DNA of 64,000 nt from Lophium mytilinum (Eukaryota > Ascomycota > Dothideomycetes > Mytilinidiales > Mytilinidiaceae). Within the stretch, counting starts at the first letter, position 1, and every line of letters begins with the position of its first letter. The notes beneath the pieces are model-generated. The model did no database searches and was not told where the DNA came from. It saw only the letters and a program-made list of their open reading frames with translations. Below, in pieces: positions 14,951-49,303 of the stretch. The translations under genes and the position numbers were made by a program. The DNA lies in NCBI GenBank assembly GCA_010093605.1, contig MU004190.1, positions 1,178,001-1,242,000 of the forward strand. Direction: 5' to 3'.

Positions 14951-15640
14951 CAGTAAGCTAAATATAACTCCTGTTTACCACTGCTTGGGGTACCCCCATA
15001 CATTTCGAAAAGTGTGGGCGCGATGTCAAGTTTCGAGCAATGAAAATCAGACTATTCCTTGGCTCATTGGCTAGTGACTAGCTGGGCCACTCCTCGCAGT
15101 GGTGTCCAGAGAGCAAATTGGAGCCAAGCAGTCACAGATCCGCGTGTTCCAGAATTTCGAAGATCTCAAGCACACACGTTTACCACTGCTTGGGGTACCC
15201 CAATACGTTTCGCAAGTCCGAGCGCAATGTCAAGTTTCAAGCAATGCAAATCAGACTATTCTTTGACTCATTGGCTACAGACTAGCTGGGCTACTCCTCA
15301 CAGTGGTGTCTAGAGAGCAATATTGAAGCCAACAGTCGCGGATCTGCGTGCTGCAGAACTTCGAAGATCTCAGGCGATGTCAATTTTCCAAGCAATGCAG
15401 ATCGGACTACTTTTTAACTTATTGGCTACTGAATAGCCGGGCTACTCCTCACAGTGGTATCCGGAGAGCAAGATCGGAGCCAAGCAGTCACAGATCCGTG
15501 TGTCACACGGTTTCGAAGCTCTAAGGCCATGTCGATTTTTAGGCAGTAGAAATTAGACTCCCTATTGTCTAGTTGGCTTCTCGGCAGCCGGGCTACCCCC
15601 TACAGTGGTGTCGAGTGAGCAGCAACACTCCACAGCATCG
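14951..15640 (+). mobile_element. Tandem array of four MITE-family copies
   Basis: Four direct repeats share a core GATGTCAAGTTTCAAGCAATG and an end block CTCCTCACAGTGGTGTC. Copies 1 and 2 carry the head CCACTGCTTGGGGTACCCC at 14978 and 15183 (205-bp spacing). Copies 3 and 4 lack the head and are spaced about 150 bp. The units are 75-90% alike by eye. Tandem order suggests unequal exchange or replication slippage after one insertion. The array lies beside the broken repeat-protein gene. Confidence 0.75.
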
Positions 15641-17399: not shown

Positions 17400-17620
17400 C
17401 AGCAATAGGCCATACCCAAGTCAGTCCGAGCATACTGGTCTGCCACTGCTTAGGGTACCCCGCAGAATTTCCAAGATCGAGCGGCGATGTTAATGTTCCA
17501 GCCGAACAGATTAGACTATCTGTTGACTGATTAGCTGTTCGGCAGCCAGGGCACCTCCGACAGTGGTGTCGAGTAAGCAAATTGGACTTAAGTAGAGAAG
17601 AGTCTACGTGCTATACTTGT
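17400..17620 (+). mobile_element. MITE-family copy
   Basis: Head GCCACTGCTTAGGGTACCCC at 17442, core GCGATGTTAATGTTCCAGCC, and end block CCGACAGTGGTGTCGAG. It matches the array copies but is more diverged. Exact ends are uncertain. Confidence 0.65.
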
Positions 17621-27838: not shown

Positions 27839-28275
27839 GACGGAAGATCAAGGAGTTCAATTTGATAATGCTGAGGAAACAAGGAGCTGATTGATGAGCA
27901 TTTGCAAACTCGGAGATATAACGGCAGCCTAAATATCGCATCTTATACTTTACCTCAATGATTCCAAGCTTCATTAATGCGGAGTGAAAACAAAGATGGT
28001 CTCCGGCATCCGAAGGTACTCGTACATGATATGGCTCAGGGTAGGTTCCAGGTCCACGGTCTATGCGGCGTCATGCGGGGCGAGATCGAATGTAGTAATA
28101 ATCCGAATCAGATTCGAAGCTGTCACCGTTCCACGAAACATGATGGGGTCCTTCATTGGAAGCGAAGGATCGACGCCTGGGATACGCAGGCGCAGTATGC
28201 GGGGTCCGGGGAAGTCTGGGGTTATCGGTTCCGAACGCACAAGGCTCTGGCCTAACGGCGAATCGTTCCACGGTA
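27839..28275. other. Promoter side of the CrtC-like gene
   Basis: About 440 bp between the CrtC-like start and a MITE copy. It probably contains the promoter of the minus-strand gene. No other feature seen. Confidence 0.4.
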
Positions 28276-28460
28276 AAGCGACAGATCATAAGTCTTTGCA
28301 CACCAGTTTGCCACTGCCTGGGATATTCACACAGTATTTCGAACCTGTAGAAGCAATGGCAAGTTTCAAGCAGTGCAAGTTAGACTGCCTTTTGACTGGT
28401 GACCAAAATTCGAGCGAAGAAATGAGGGATTCGTATACCCAGGCTCAGGACATACTACTG
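28276..28460 (+). mobile_element. MITE-family copy with internal deletion
   Basis: Left end GACAGATCATAAGTCTTTGC runs into TTTGCCACTGCCTGGG, core AGCAATGGCAAGTTTCAAGC, right end TTCGAGCGAAG...CCCAGGCTCAG...ACTACTG. About 40 bp of the interior, including the CAGTGGTG block, is missing compared with the copy at 42393. TA flanks the left end; the right flank is CA, one change from TA. Confidence 0.65.
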
Positions 28461-30119: not shown

Positions 30120-30671
30120 GTTGACGATAGCTATAAAAGCGAGAATAACCTGATACTCAACTTATTGGGGAAAAACGATGAGAATGTTCAACGATAGAGA
30201 TTTGCGGCGTGATAAAAGCCGAATGAAGAGCAAAGGGAGATGGGCAAGTCAAGGATTAAGAGTTGCGTGTTTTGATGTATATACAGGATATATGGAGGAA
30301 TGTCATCGTAATCGCCAGGGGAAGAGGCTTCCTAGCGGGCGCATTGCACATGCGCATACGCGGCTTATTCGATGGCCTCATGGCCAGCAAGGCAGAGTCG
30401 GAGGGGTAGCGACGTTCCGGAACAGATGCGACGCGTCAGTCGTGAGAGGGCTCGCGCAATAGTGGGTACGTCTGGCAGGGTGATGGGCGAGGTGACGAAT
30501 CACTAGTTTTGCGCTTATCACCGTGCAGATGGCGGGCAGTAGACCGGAAGCGGTTACATCCACCGGCTGCTTGCGAAGATATACCGCCCGAGTGAACAGC
30601 CAAGCCGAGACTGTGAACGTAGCAGCGTGTTACATTCGAGCATCGCCCAGTTCGAGGCGCGCAGATGAATA
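30120..30671. other. Intergenic gap before a MITE
   Basis: About 550 bp upstream of the GH16 start; its promoter is expected here. No gene or repeat seen. Confidence 0.4.
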
Positions 30672-30905
30672 CGAAGGAGTTCGTTTTTTGGAGTCACAAG
30701 CGAAAACCCCTCAGTGGCTTTGACAGCTGACAACACCTACAACAAGTCCAATTAACACAATCAAAATAGTGCGATTTCTTAATCGTGTAAAAATGTGCCG
30801 TTCTGGCAAGACCAGAAACAATTTCGAGTTGTGGTGGACTTGCGCGGAGGTGTCAAAGTTGTCGATGTTCGTTGCGTGGTGACTCAAAAAATACGAACTC
30901 CTTCG
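30672..30905. mobile_element. Second MITE type, 234 bp with about 28-bp terminal inverted repeats
   Basis: The left end is CGAAGGAGTTCGTTTTTTGG then AGTCAC. The right end reads the same on the opposite strand with two small differences (CGAAGGAGTTCGTATTTTTT then GAGTCAC). TA lies directly outside both ends (30670-30671 and 30906-30907), the target duplication of Tc1/mariner/pogo elements. The interior has no coding capacity. It ends 24 bp beyond the stop of the minus-strand gene at 30929. Confidence 0.75.
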
Positions 30906-41276: not shown

Positions 41277-44200
41277 TCACACACCCCGCCACACAAAATC
41301 TTCCTTTACAGAAAACTGTACCTCTTCAACGATCTCCACCGAGCTCTTCGCCACGAGCGCGTGGTACGTACCGGCTTCCGCCACCCACGTATCTCTATCC
41401 TCATCCCAGAAACTGACAGCATACTTGTCCAGCTCAACCGTCACTTTCCCAGTCTCCTCTGGCCTCACCTCAACCTTCGCAAACCCCTTCAGCTCCTTGA
41501 TCGGCCTCTTCCCTCGCCCAACTTGATGCGCCGGGGGTGCGACATAAACCTGCACGATCTCCTTCCCAACAACCTTACCAACGTTCTTCACGCTCACCAC
41601 CAACCTCAGCTTATCCCCCACCGCCTTGATCTCCGCCTCCCCTTTCCACCCAATCTCAGTATACTCAAAGCTCGTATAGCTCAGCCCATACCCAAACGCC
41701 CACCTCGCACTAGCATTCCCCTCACGGTCGTAGTGCCTATACCCCACATCTCTGCCCTCCTCATACCTCAACACCCCATCCTCCGGACACGGAAAGTGCC
41801 CAAAAGACGGATTATCCTCGATCCGCACCGGCCAACTACTCGCCAGCTTCCCGCACGGCGTAATCACCCCGGTAACAACCGCCGCGATGGAGTTTCCGGC
41901 CTCCTGCCCGGGGTAGAAACACTGCAGCACCCCTTTGACCCCCTCCAACTCCGCGAACGGCATTGCGATCGGGGAGCCGGAGAAATTGATCACCACGGTA
42001 TTTGGGTTCGAGGCTGCGACGGCGTTGATGAGGGAGACTTGGTCGCAGGGCAGATCCATGGATGCCTGGTCGTAACCCTCGCTCTCGAATTCATCGGTTT
42101 TGCCGACGAAGACAAGGGCGATGTCGGAGGTGGCAGCGAGGGCGGCGGCGTCGGAGAGACGGGTAGGGATGGAGTAGGCTTCGTAGAAACGGATGGAGGA
42201 GCCTTGGAGGAGGGTCATGGAGCCGAGTTGGGAGGAGCGGAGGCGGGCGAGGGCGGCGTCGGAGGCGCCTCTGGTGGTGAGAGTGATTTTGTAGGGGTGG
42301 TTGGCGCGCATGGGGTAGGTTATGTGGCGGGTGAGGGTGTTTTTGTGGAAGACGTCTGCATGGGATCAGTATATTGTTTAGAGGAAGATTTACAGTGACA
42401 GATCATAAGCCTGTGCACGTTCGTTCGCCACTGCTTGGGGTGCCCCGACAAGATCTTAAAAGTCCAGCGCTGATGTTAAAGTTCAAGCAGTGTAGCTTAG
42501 ACCACTTCTGGGCAGGCTGGTCACTAAGCAGCCAGGTTACCACTCACAGTGGTGATGAATGAGCGAGGTTCGAGCCAAGCAGTGACGAATTCGCATGCCC
42601 AGATTCATGATAGTACTGTATCAGTAAGCTGGGTAACTTACAGCTCTCGAAGATCAAATCCATCTCCTGATCTCGGTGGTACACGTGCTCGTCGTCGACC
42701 CAGATGTCAGCTTCACCGGTCGTCGTGACTCCGAGGATGTGGTCTCCGGTCGTTTTGGGAATGATGATAAATTGCATTCTGGAGCAATAGTCAATCTCAT
42801 TTAAATCTTGCGGCCACGCCTCCTTTATCATGTATTCCGGCCTTTTCAGATGGTCGGTTCGAACAGGTTTCCCATCCGGAGAGGTTGCGTTGAACCACTC
42901 GCAAAGGACGGGAATTTCGGGGGATGGTGACGCTTCCACCGGACCAACCACGTCGAGACCCGGCAATGGAATTGCGTTATAGACTGGCACTCCTGGTGAG
43001 TACTCGTAGTTGATTCCAGCATTGGTAAAACCTTCTAGAGGAGTGACGCCCTTGAGCGGGAATAGCTTAGCGGACCCTCCTCCAGACATATTCGTTGCGG
43101 CCGCATGATGCCCAATGACTGCAACGCGGGCTCCTGGTGAGATGGGCAGTACGGAATTGTTGTTCTTCAAAAGCACAAATCCTTCGGCGGCGGCCCGGCA
43201 GATTAAGTCATCTCTTACTTTGCTGGCCGCCTCGAATTCGGGCTTCTCCACTGGGGTTTTCCACTTGTCGGCTCTTTTGATAAGCTCCAATACTCGGCAA
43301 GCCTCTTCGTCGATGGTGTCTGTTGATACCTCGCCGTTGGATATTGCATCTAAGAGCTTCTTACCGCGATGTTTGGTTGGGCCAGGCTGTAATAAAAGTC
43401 AGGTAAGAAGCAAAATGCGGACGTCCAGGAGTCCTCACCATCTCCAGATCCATACCGGCATTTACGGGCTCGTTGCAGGAGTACGTGCCAGCCCAGTCTG
43501 ACATCACGAGGCCTTTGAAGCCCCACTCTACTCGTAGAACATCGGTAATGAGACGCTTGCTATCGCCAACGAACTCTCCTTGGACTCGATTGTAACTGCA
43601 TGCCCATGATTAACACTGACCTCGGGAGTATTTACGATACTAGGCCATGAGTCTGGGCACGCTTATCGTCACTGCTGGGCTCGAATCTTTTTCACTTGCC
43701 ACGGTAGGAGGTAGCCTGGCTGCTCAAAGGCCAGTCAGTCAAGAAGCAGTCTAGTCTGCGCAGCTTGAAAACTGACATCGGCATTGAGTTTGGAAACCTT
43801 ATAGTGGACTTCAAGCAGTGGCGAACAGGGCACAGACTTATGAACTGTCACTGTATGTAGAGAGAGTACTAACCTCGTCATGAAGCACCAAGGGTCGCAT
43901 TCTTTCATAACGATCTGAAATGGATACAAATACACTTCCCTCAGTGTACTCTCACTCAATCGGACATCTAGGGTCCTTCTTTTGTTTTCCGCTTCATTTG
44001 CCACGTAATGCTTGGGCGTAGCACCAACACCTCGAGACTGAATGCCTTTGAAGATCTATCAGAACACCACAGTTGGAAAGAGGGCTCTTCATACCATTAA
44101 CGCATGCTGCTCCTAGCTTCCCTAGGAGAAAGGGGTCTTCGCCATACGTCTCGTAGTTGCGGCCACCTAAAGGGGAGCGGACTACATTGATGGTTGGAGC

Positions 44201-45497: not shown

Positions 45498-45715
45498 TAG
45501 ACGGAGTCAAAATTGACTACCACTTATTGTTCAGCGAGCCGCGCCAGGACCGCATGATTACTTGCGACCCTGACCACTACCACCAGGCTACCGGCCATAA
45601 AGGTAGGGTATGCCCTCCGCTGTGCTCTCGAGCTAACTTCTTGCTTTAATTTCGGTCCTGCACGTGGACTTTCACGCTCACCTTAGGGTCTGGTACTTGA
45701 AATCAGATCGTAGCC

Positions 45716-47551
45716 ATGGCTCCAGGAACAGTGCATGTCGTTGGAGCCGCAGACCCCATTCTCACGCGAGTCGTCGCAGAGGACAAAGTATCTTGGTATA
45801 AGAAACCTAACCTTCGAATTTTGTACCTCTTACTGCTTCCGACATGCATCGGTATCGAGATGACTTCGGGCTTTGACTCCCAGATGATCAACACTGTACA
45901 GATAGTACCTTCATGGCAAGAGTGTTAGTACTAGAACAGCCTTGAAGGGGATTTATACTCACGGAAAGACTAGACTTCAACCACCCCAAGGGCTCACTAA
46001 AAGGCATCATTGCTGCCATTTACTCCCTTGGAGCTATCTGTGCTCTCCCATTCGTCCCTTTGGTCAACGATCGCTTTGGACGACGATGGGCCATCTTCTT
46101 CGGATCGTTCATGATGGTGTTTGGTTCCATTCTCCAAGGATTCGCAAACGGATGTAAGCTCGTCCTCTCCGCTTAGCTAAGTATCTGTATTGATGATAGC
46201 AGCGGCAATGTATATCATTGCTCGATGGTTCCTAGGCTTTGGTATCCCATTTTGCATCGTAGCCGGATCAGCTCTCATCGGCGAGCTCTCATATCCGAAA
46301 GAACGCCCTATCCTCACATCGCTTTTCAACGCATTGTACTTCGTCGGTGCCTTGGTGGCTGCTGGGATATCCTTCGGTACCCAAGACATCAAGAGTGATT
46401 GGGCCTGGAGAATTCCGTCCTTGCTTCAAGCCGTGCCTTCGGCCCTCCAAATCGCATTCGTGTTCTTCAGTCCGGAGTCCCCGCGATTTCTTATAAGCAA
46501 AGACAAGCGTGAAGAGGCGTTTGCGATTTTGGTCAAGTACCACGCCGAAGGGGATGCCAATTCGGAAATAGTCAAAGCGGAAATGGCCCAAATTGAGAGT
46601 ACGATCAAGATCGAGCTGGAGCACAGCAAGAGATCTTGGTGGGAAATGGTCCGGCCTCCCGGGATGCGCCGACGCGTCATAATCGCTTCTTTCTTGGGGC
46701 TGTTCACGCAATGGAGTGGAAACACGTTGATCAGTGTAAGCTTTGCCGCAGCTTCCCCATGCCTCGTCAAACACTGTTGCATGGAAATGAACATAGGAAG
46801 AAATATGAATGCTGACTGAGGGACTAGTACTACCTCAACGATCTGCTTGTGCTGATCGGTTACACGGATCCGAAGTTCAAGGGCAAGCTCAACGTTGGCC
46901 TTAACAGCTGGCAGTTGGTCAACGGCGTTACTGCCGCGCTCTTAGTTCGCCGCTTTCCCCGTCGAGTCATGTACATGACTTGCACCATCTCGCTGCTTTG
47001 CGTCTATATTGGCTGGACCATTTCCATGGAACAGTTTTTGACCAAGCATGGGGAAGCCGCGGCAAAGCTTACGATATTCTTCATCTTTCTGTACTCACCG
47101 GCGTACAACATAGGCTATAATGCCTTGACTTACACATATCTAGTCGAATTGTTCCCCTTCGCTCAACGAGCAAGAGGGATCACCATATTCCAATTCTGGG
47201 GCAGAGGCGCGGGCTTCTTCACGACCTTCGTGAACCCGATTGGGCTTGAGAACATCAAGTGGCGGTGGCTGATAACGTACTGCTGCTGGATCGCTTTTGA
47301 GATCGTTTTCGTATGGTTCATGTTTCCGGAGACTGGCGGTCGAACTTTGGAGGAACTCGCCTTCTGTAAGTTGCTACAACGCCTTATTGCCGCTACGTGC
47401 CTGGCTGACAAGGTTCTTCCCAGTGTTCGAGGATAAGGCGCTGGCCGACGAGGCTACAATGGCGGTCGAAAAGCAGATCCATCACGAGGAAAACCCCTTG
47501 GAAGAAATCACGTCCAAAGCTGCGCCTACGCAGACCAAGGAGGTCGTGTAG
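45716..47551 (+). CDS. MFS sugar transporter (lactose/cellodextrin permease-like), 529 aa
   Basis: Five exons: 45716-45923, 45974-46153, 46200-46735, 46828-47365, 47424-47551. All junctions keep frame. Motifs: VNDRFGRRWAIFFGS (MFS signature after TM2), RWFLGFGIPFCIVAGSALIG (TM4), PESPRFLISKDKREEA before the central loop, AEGDANSEIV in the loop, FTQWSGNTLIS|YYLND at TM7, and PETGGRTLEELAF after TM12. This is the sugar-porter family, closest by motif to fungal Lac12-like lactose/cellobiose proton symporters. Next to a GH3 enzyme without a signal peptide, import of a beta-linked disaccharide followed by internal hydrolysis is the simplest reading. Intron 3 (46736-46827) begins with an inverted copy of exon 4. 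Confidence 0.9.
46736..46789 (-). repeat. Inverted copy of exon 4 inside transporter intron 3
   Basis: The 54 nt from the GTAAG donor onward are the reverse complement of 47019-47072 in exon 4, matching at 49 of 54 positions (mismatches at five scattered sites, no gaps). The donor GTAAGC is itself the complement of exon sequence GCTTAC. The rest of the 92-nt intron has a CTGAC branch-like site and ends GACTAG. Confidence 0.9.
47019..47072 (+). repeat. Exonic partner of the intron 3 inverted repeat
   Basis: Coding sequence for ISMEQFLTKHGEAAAKLT in exon 4. It keeps an ordinary frame and plausible transmembrane-loop sequence, so it is the likely source and the intronic copy the derivative. The loop between arms is 229 nt. 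Confidence 0.85.
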
Positions 47552-48015
47552 TTGCTGGAATTGAACGTGATATGAATGCAAGTGTCGCACTTAACGAGGG
47601 CATTTGTGTGGCTGGCGTTCGGGAGTGATAATATGACCGGGAAGGAGAAATGACTAAACGCGACGAGCTTATTATTCTATGTAACCTGCGAATGAAGATT
47701 GATCCTACCATGTGACTGACATTGTCTACGTTATATTACAAGCAATCATATTGAATATCTTAAATCATCTTGAGAATGGCCGTGCGCGGTCGCAATGATT
47801 GAAGCTTATCGTGTTCTGAACGCGTGATTTCCAGCAGAAAGTGAATGATAGGGTGACTTCTGTGCTTCCTGTGTAGACCGCTGATATTTGATGGAGGGCG
47901 ACGGCGACCCACAGCGATGGAGAAAAGAAGAGCCTGAATTAGAGTGTGGTCCGTGCGGCATCCACTAAACTTTTCCACGACTTCACGTCTTCCTCGTCGG
48001 CAAGCACCTCGCAAC

Positions 48016-49303
48016 ATGGCGAAACGAACGCACGCAGAATTCCTGGAATCTGGGCCCCCAGATCGCTCTGTTCCCAACGATGAACGCGCTGTGCAGACAG
48101 GCCTATGTGCGCACAGGATCAATCTTGGAAAGACGGTCGTCCGCCGCGCCATGAAACTTGCTGCGGGCTTCGAGCGCCAGAAATCTGGAAGACGAAGGAA
48201 GACAGCGAAGCAAAAGAAGGATGATGCTGCTCTTGCGCGTTTTGACTTGGAAGCTCAAGCTCTGAAAGTCCGTAAGCTTTATATACTCGGCGTGCGACAC
48301 GGTACTAATAGTTTCGCAGTCACTCGACCTCGAACGCGCCGCAGAAGACCACATACACAAAAGCCTCCTTAAAATAAAATCCATAGCATCCTCCGAAGCC
48401 CTTCCTCCTTCCGTCAAGCCTCCATCTCGTGCTGTCGTGGATACCGCCTCTCTAAACGTTCTCGCTCGCCTATATAACTCCAATCCCGTTCAGACCGCAA
48501 TGAAGACTCTGATTACCGATATTCAGGGAATATTAGGGCTGGAAGACCGGAACGTAAAATCAAGGAAGGGTGAAGACGGCAGAGCTATATCTGTGGCAGA
48601 ACAAAAATCCAAAGCAAAGCGACGGGCCGATACAAGCGATGATGATGATTACCCTGCATATGAGGCTCGCATTGCAGGTTCTTCAGACGAAGACGATAGT
48701 GAGGCGTCTGGAAGCGAGGCTGAAGACGGGGTGGTCCAGGTGAGAAGCAAAGTCTCCCCAACAATCGACTTCTCCGTTTCTCCACCGCCATCATCCGAGG
48801 AGTCGTCCTTCGAGGGGTTCTCAGAACCCGATTTTAAAACTCGATCTTCTGAGCCGTCTCAAGTCCCTATTGCGTCTACTTTTGTTCCTTCCCTTACGAC
48901 CGGCGGCTATTGGTCTGGCTCGGAATCTGAACCAGAAGACGACGTGGAAGTTCAGCCAAGGAAGAACCGAAGAGGCCAGCAAGCAAGGCGCTTGCTTGCG
49001 GAGAAGAAGTTTGGTGAAGAAGCAAAACACCTCAAGGAAGGGAAGACCAGTGACCGAGACAAAGGCTGGGATCTAAAGAGAGGCGCGCAGGACGGCTCCC
49101 GGGGACGAAATGGCAAGTATCGGTCTAGGGATTTCCGTCCAGCTAGAACTTTCGCTTCGGATGCCAATACAGTGGAGCTTAATCCACCAAAACCTAAAAA
49201 GGACGATACCGGCCCCTTGCATCCTTCGTGGCAGGCTGCAAAGTTGGCGAAAGAGAAAAATCAGACAGCGAGCTTCCAGGGCAAAAAGGTGGTTTTTGAT
49301 TGA
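48016..49303 (+). CDS. BUD22: BUD22-family ribosome biogenesis protein, 411 aa
   Basis: Exon 1 48016-48267 and exon 2 48320-49303. The basic helical N-terminus (KTVVRRAMKLAAGFERQKSG then RRRKTAKQKKDD) and LLKIKSIASSEALPPSV follow the BUD22/SRFBP1 pattern. The middle is acidic and Ser-rich (DDDDYPAYEARIAGSSDEDD). The C-terminus GPLHPSWQAAKLAKEKN and FQGKKVVFD is the family hallmark. Yeast Bud22 is a nucleolar factor needed for 18S rRNA maturation and 40S assembly. The frame demands joining EAQALK to SLDLERAAEDH; that uses donor GTCCGT at 48268, while the stronger-looking GTAAGC four bases on would shift the frame. Confidence 0.85.

Follow-up and report, generated by a model that had tools for sequence, protein, structure and literature searches.

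How introns acquire new sequence has long been asked, and in most cases the traces are no longer legible because of their age. A 92-nucleotide (nt) intron in a sugar transporter gene of the fungus Lophium mytilinum poses that question at a single locus. The gene lies within the 64,000-nt stretch of contig MU004190.1 that we analyzed (the window, whose positions are used throughout unless a locus is named), and more than half of its third intron (54/92 nt) is an inverted copy of a stretch of the exon downstream. How did antisense exon sequence come to be in the intron, and did the event create the intron or alter one that was already there? The mutation footprint is real and unusually legible, because its source, its target, and both of its edges can be read. 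A copying slip in DNA replication or repair is most likely to have left the inverted copy. As argued below from the sequence, a single short-range inverted templated copy, primed at the donor, probably overwrote the 5' portion of a preexisting ordinary intron.

The transporter gene (45716-47551, forward strand) was predicted from the sequence, using a splice model with one open frame of 528 amino acids. It has five exons, at 45716-45923, 45974-46153, 46203-46735, 46828-47365, and 47424-47551, with 46200 as an alternative start of exon 3. A Pfam search of the 528-residue product matched Sugar_tr (PF00083) over residues 43-486 with an E value of 4e-77, and the solved structures scoring best against it are sugar transporters, including Sugar transport protein 10 and GLUT1. 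Scanning a set of viral contigs with the same protein revealed no relative. Introns 1, 2, 3, and 4 are 50, 49, 92, and 58 nt long, respectively. Intron 3 (46736-46827) is in phase 0 and follows residue 307, the last of the residues NTLIS. Reading through it leads to an in-frame TGA at 46817-46819 after 27 residues, and splicing it out gives the 528-residue open frame. Therefore, the intron is needed. By its sequence it has the features of a U2-type intron: a GT donor, a branch site, an AG acceptor, and a frame that is kept on removal.

Two neighbors flank this gene. Downstream, at 48437-49303 on the forward strand, is a match to BUD22 (PF09073, 1.7e-60). Upstream and divergent from the transporter, on the reverse strand at 41277-43290, are pieces of a GH3 beta-glucosidase-like gene (Glyco_hydro_3_C and Fn3-like), which could form a glycosidase-transporter pair with it. 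Copies of a SINE-like element, described below, sit between and beyond these pieces.

The inverted copy (arm 1) occupies 46736-46789, and the corresponding exon sequence (arm 2) is at 47019-47072 within exon 4, where it codes for residues ISMEQFLTKHGEAAAKLT. The first-pass annotation had described 46736-46789 as an ungapped reverse complement of 47019-47072 with 49/54 matches, and recomputing the match gave the same result. It had also placed the start of the copy exactly at the splice donor. This holds to the base, as the block opens with the G of GTAAGC at 46736 and position 46735 is mismatched. Matches drop to 11/30 past the 5' edge and to 10/40 past the 3' edge, so both ends of the block are sharp. 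Under a looser repeat-finder rule, the pair grows to 71 nt at 82%. A short inverted match (14/15) also links 46642-46656 in exon 3 to 47011-47025 at the 3' edge of arm 2; its register differs from that of the main pair, and it may be due to chance.

For an ungapped pair this good, with arms no more than 1.5 kb apart, the chance expectation is about 2e-16 in 64 kb at equal base frequencies. We also scanned 43 sequences, covering 268 kb of the genome, for arms within the same distance. The highest score, 39, was that of the focal pair, and no other pair scored above 20. There were no pairs scoring 17 or more in 1.34 Mb of simulated first-order Markov sequence, a result that bounds the chance level without measuring it. 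The divergence between the arms is about 0.10 per site, a figure that does not by itself date the event. In the reading frame of exon 4, the arms differ by E/Q, F/C, T/T, K/R, and A/A, and two silent changes out of five (22% expected) are too few to tell which copy changed.

Inverted pairs can also come from mobile or repeated sequences. BLAST of four 10-kb regions, a further 40 kb of the genome, revealed two stronger pairs (in loci L056 and L058) and one weaker pair (in L055). When these three and a pair at window positions 30650-30720 were searched genome-wide in the same way as the focal pair, all four proved to be dispersed repeats. Counting the query in each case, the L056 pair had 42 hits among the matches listed, the L058 pair had 18 match rows over both strands that represent ten distinct places, and, of the two shorter pairs, the one in L055 had 5 places and the one at 30650-30720 had 4. 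A 38-nt palindrome (L056 6088-6125) and a 23-nt pair in L031 were left out of this search. Such company is what would favor the idea that the focal arms belong to a transposable element or an introner, or that they reflect an assembly error. However, a 95-base query (46736-46830) against the genome (43.2 Mb, 24 contigs) matched two places, and these were the two arms at this one locus. The search passes over simple repeats and very common words, and at its sensitivity the focal pair is the only one, among those searched genome-wide, that is private to one gene. The same search, with a query that spans the whole intron, did not find the multiple genome copies that are a feature of introners and symmetrical sister introns. 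There is also no inverted repeat of the symmetrical kind inside the intron itself, since the partner arm sits in exon 4. Furthermore, that arm is coding sequence common to paralogues. The gene is intact and the arms differ at five sites, two of which are silent when read as exon 4, and this argues against an assembly error. We therefore consider an element, introner, or artifact very improbable. A repeat or transposable-element origin of the arms was rejected on the result of the genome-wide DNA search, at the sensitivity given above.

The L056 copies (996-1150 and 2217-2369, in opposite orientation) represent an element of about 190 nt that reads like a SINE, and a copy has dozens of genome matches at 85-92% identity. 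Both apparently sit in introns of a putative pyruvate carboxylase gene; both labels are our own reading, the gene label being taken from the translated sequence. The window has copies of this element at 42391-42609, 43646-43855, 14978-15621, 17424-17586, and 28274-28397, about 70-76% identical to those in L056, and the 42391/43646 pair was assigned to the element by BLAST only. At L058 9344-9457 is a 114-nt palindrome, 88% self-complementary, that resembles a fold-back MITE.

Which arm is the original? We examined this with paralogues of the transporter. The sample had 32 loci with 94 introns and is part of a family with at least 93 matches listed. Of these loci, 22 came with the top-scoring matches, and the other 10 were added on the ground that their matches stopped near residue 307. 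We omitted L036 and L037, which repeat L028 and L029, and did not realign L012-L014, L020, L021, and L023, which lie inside genes already covered. The exon arm aligned in frame and without an arm-sized gap or insertion in 31/32 loci, which are all of those whose alignment reaches the arm. This suggests, from the reading frame, that exon 4 was the source and intron 3 the target. It supports the first-pass proposal of a local inverted duplication or template switch, now as a sharp-edged, single-locus copy with 49/54 matches and with exon 4 as its source. The reverse direction, in which intron sequence was copied into the exon, was rejected on the same in-frame alignment.

The start of the block exactly at the donor needs an explanation. 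The first-pass annotation had derived the splice site itself from antisense exon sequence, and as stated this claim was not supported. Among the 94 paralogue introns, 34 have a GTAAG donor and 9 have GTAAGC. The complementary hexamer GCTTAC occurs once on the forward strand of 45701-47600, at 47067-47072, which is the exact end of the copied stretch. Because GTAAG is common among the paralogue donors and the sole GCTTAC marks the end of the copied stretch, shared microhomology is the simpler reading of the donor. Thus, GTAAGC (46736-46741) was probably the old splice site, acting as a 6-nt microhomology at the switch point. Any given hexamer is expected about 0.5 times per 1.9 kb by chance, so one GCTTAC in this region fits priming but does not prove it. 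The opposite edge of the block has no evident microhomology. If the old donor was already GTAAGC, splicing would have stayed intact throughout the event. Also, if the donor did serve as microhomology, then inverted copying may land repeatedly at splice donors, many of which have GTAAG as in those 34 paralogue introns.

Did the event remodel an intron or make one? The first-pass annotation had offered both options. It had also assigned a CTGAC branch site and a GACTAG acceptor to the 38 nt past the inverted copy, and we located these at 46812-46816 and ending at 46827, respectively. Their spacing is normal, and the 38-nt tail (46790-46827) is a complete intron 3' end. Paralogue introns have a median length of 55 nt, with quartiles of 51 and 60 nt, and 7/94 are at least 92 nt, although some of the longest inferred ones may be alignment errors. 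Adding a lost stretch of 10 to 20 nt to the tail would give an intron of ordinary length. Replacement therefore needs one event and no unexplained filler, with the tail as the putative remnant of the older intron.

The alternative is that the event created the intron. Antisense exon 4 sequence would have been inserted between codons 307 and 308 and supplied the GTAAGC donor, and a 38-nt filler would have supplied the branch site and acceptor. This accounts for a block that begins exactly at the donor. It also fits the paralogue survey, in which a splice alignment at 23-39% identity found an intron at position 307 in phase 0 in 0/32 loci. In 9 of the 32 loci an intron does lie close by, between 303 and 311, with a different position or phase. 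This count is inflated by selection, as fetching loci whose matches ended near 307 biases the sample toward introns there, and the 10 loci picked in that way account for 7 of the 9. However, the positions of introns 2 (residue 129, phase 1) and 4 (residue 486, phase 1) are unshared with the paralogues too, and intron 1 was matched in L010 only. These positions come from a purpose-made simple splice aligner, and positions 69 and 486 were not reached by every alignment. Since introns 2 and 4 are also unshared, lack of sharing does not point to a recent origin, and the 0/32 count argues weakly for birth. Birth of the intron would also need a second, unexplained source for a 38-nt stretch with a branch site and acceptor at normal spacing, and that stretch, searched within the 46736-46830 query, had no second match in the genome at E values up to 0.001. 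For these reasons, we regard creation of the intron by this event as unlikely. A fuller version is somewhat more doubtful still: an antisense copy of exon 4 would have entered coding sequence that had no intron after codon 307, the start of the copy would have become a working GTAAGC donor, the filler would have become the branch site and acceptor, and self-templated inverted copying would be a route to new spliceosomal introns. If it were true, that birth would also have left a 54-nt intron-exon hairpin in the pre-mRNA, as well as a spliced-out intron that is antisense to the mRNA of its own gene. Therefore, of the two options in the first-pass annotation, the 38-nt tail and the ordinary length favor an older intron whose 5' part was replaced, and creation is less likely.

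Replacement could have proceeded as follows. A growing DNA end at the old GTAAGC donor would pair with the antiparallel GCTTAC at 47067-47072, and copying would run from there back to 47019. The copied end would then rejoin inside the intron, just before 46790. In this way, the first 10 to 20 or so nt after the donor of a 50- to 60-nt intron would be replaced by about 48 nt of antisense exon 4, with the branch site and acceptor of the older intron kept. The sequence fits a replication-fork switch and break repair alike, and it cannot tell these routes apart.

A further consequence is structural. The first-pass annotation had predicted a long hairpin joining intron 3 to exon 4 and had suggested folding the pre-mRNA over 46700-47100. 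That fold has a predicted energy of -155.1 kcal/mol, compared with -117.5 (standard deviation [SD] 6) for 100 shuffles (z -6.3), and the two arms are paired in it, so the hairpin is strongly predicted. The replacement event described above would have left it as a by-product. It might instead have been kept by selection as a splicing switch, in which, if transcription of the partner arm precedes splicing, the donor is locked in a duplex, the intron is retained, and a truncated transporter of 307 + 27 residues is made. The predicted stability is compatible with this: the duplex of the two arms comes to -82.7 kcal/mol, a 501-nt pre-mRNA folds at -196.1 compared with -165.1 (SD 3.5) when the intron arm is shuffled 100 times, and a retained intron does bring in an in-frame stop. 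However, the predicted mean unpaired probability of the donor hardly shifts as the transcript grows, being 0.27, 0.45, 0.28, and 0.21 for transcripts ending at 47018, 47060, 47072, and 47100. All five differences between the arms break pairs and none gives a G-U pair, although 0/5 is not significant. On these predictions, a selected switch is improbable. Occlusion of the donor by the hairpin was rejected as well, as the fold calculation gave no clear loss of donor accessibility; predicted openness of the acceptor went from 0.98 to 0.85 as the transcript grew. The arms are 229 nt apart, and because the partner arm starts 191 nt past the end of intron 3, splicing during transcription could precede the hairpin.

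An intron made partly from an inverted copy of its own exon was not described in the titles and opening abstract lines of the open-access papers listed by our searches. Reverse-complement filler in introns has been proposed before, from a distant source, as one gained intron in Drosophila is reported with a reverse complement that matches mitochondrial sequence (PMC3296678). Fungal introns with ends in inverted repeats of about 50 nt are described as the internally symmetrical stwintrons and cropped sister introns of the Hypoxylaceae, and in that respect they are like intron 3. However, their arms are reported as both intronic (about 73% identical in two examples) and their family as multi-copy, whereas here one arm is exonic and the pair is single-copy (PMC8469720).

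There are also parallels with copying events at breaks and forks. Fold-back inversions at yeast breaks are reported to span 2 to about 150 bp, mostly <14 bp, and to be primed by inverted microhomology, with a 41-nt spacer and with the other end joined by 0 to 5 bp of homology (PMC11724301). As described there, these templated inverted insertions share with our locus the local inverted copy and the scant homology at the other end, and their priming by inverted microhomology is what is proposed here. They are mostly shorter than the 54-nt copy at our locus, and they lie beside the break, unlike our arms with their 229-nt separation. Yeast coding sequences, too, are reported to be altered by template switching (PMC8604942). 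The four-point model of short-range template switching yields this kind of product when synthesis jumps to the other strand and then returns (PMC7954356 and PMC8794818), and the human events are reported to be enriched in introns (PMC7954356). Intron 3 has three features of such an event: a reverse-complement copy beyond chance, sharp switch points with unrelated flanks, and a source and target at one locus. As in the reported mutations, a single event would have reverse complemented a nearby stretch, and what it left is an inverted repeat that may form an RNA hairpin. Unlike those sets, which are described as found through related genomes or reconstructed ancestors, this case was read from one genome. 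It also differs from them (PMC7954356 and PMC8794818) in having a splice donor at the edge of the target and an exon of the same gene as the source. Intron 3 clearly illustrates how a mutation of an already known kind can land in an intron.
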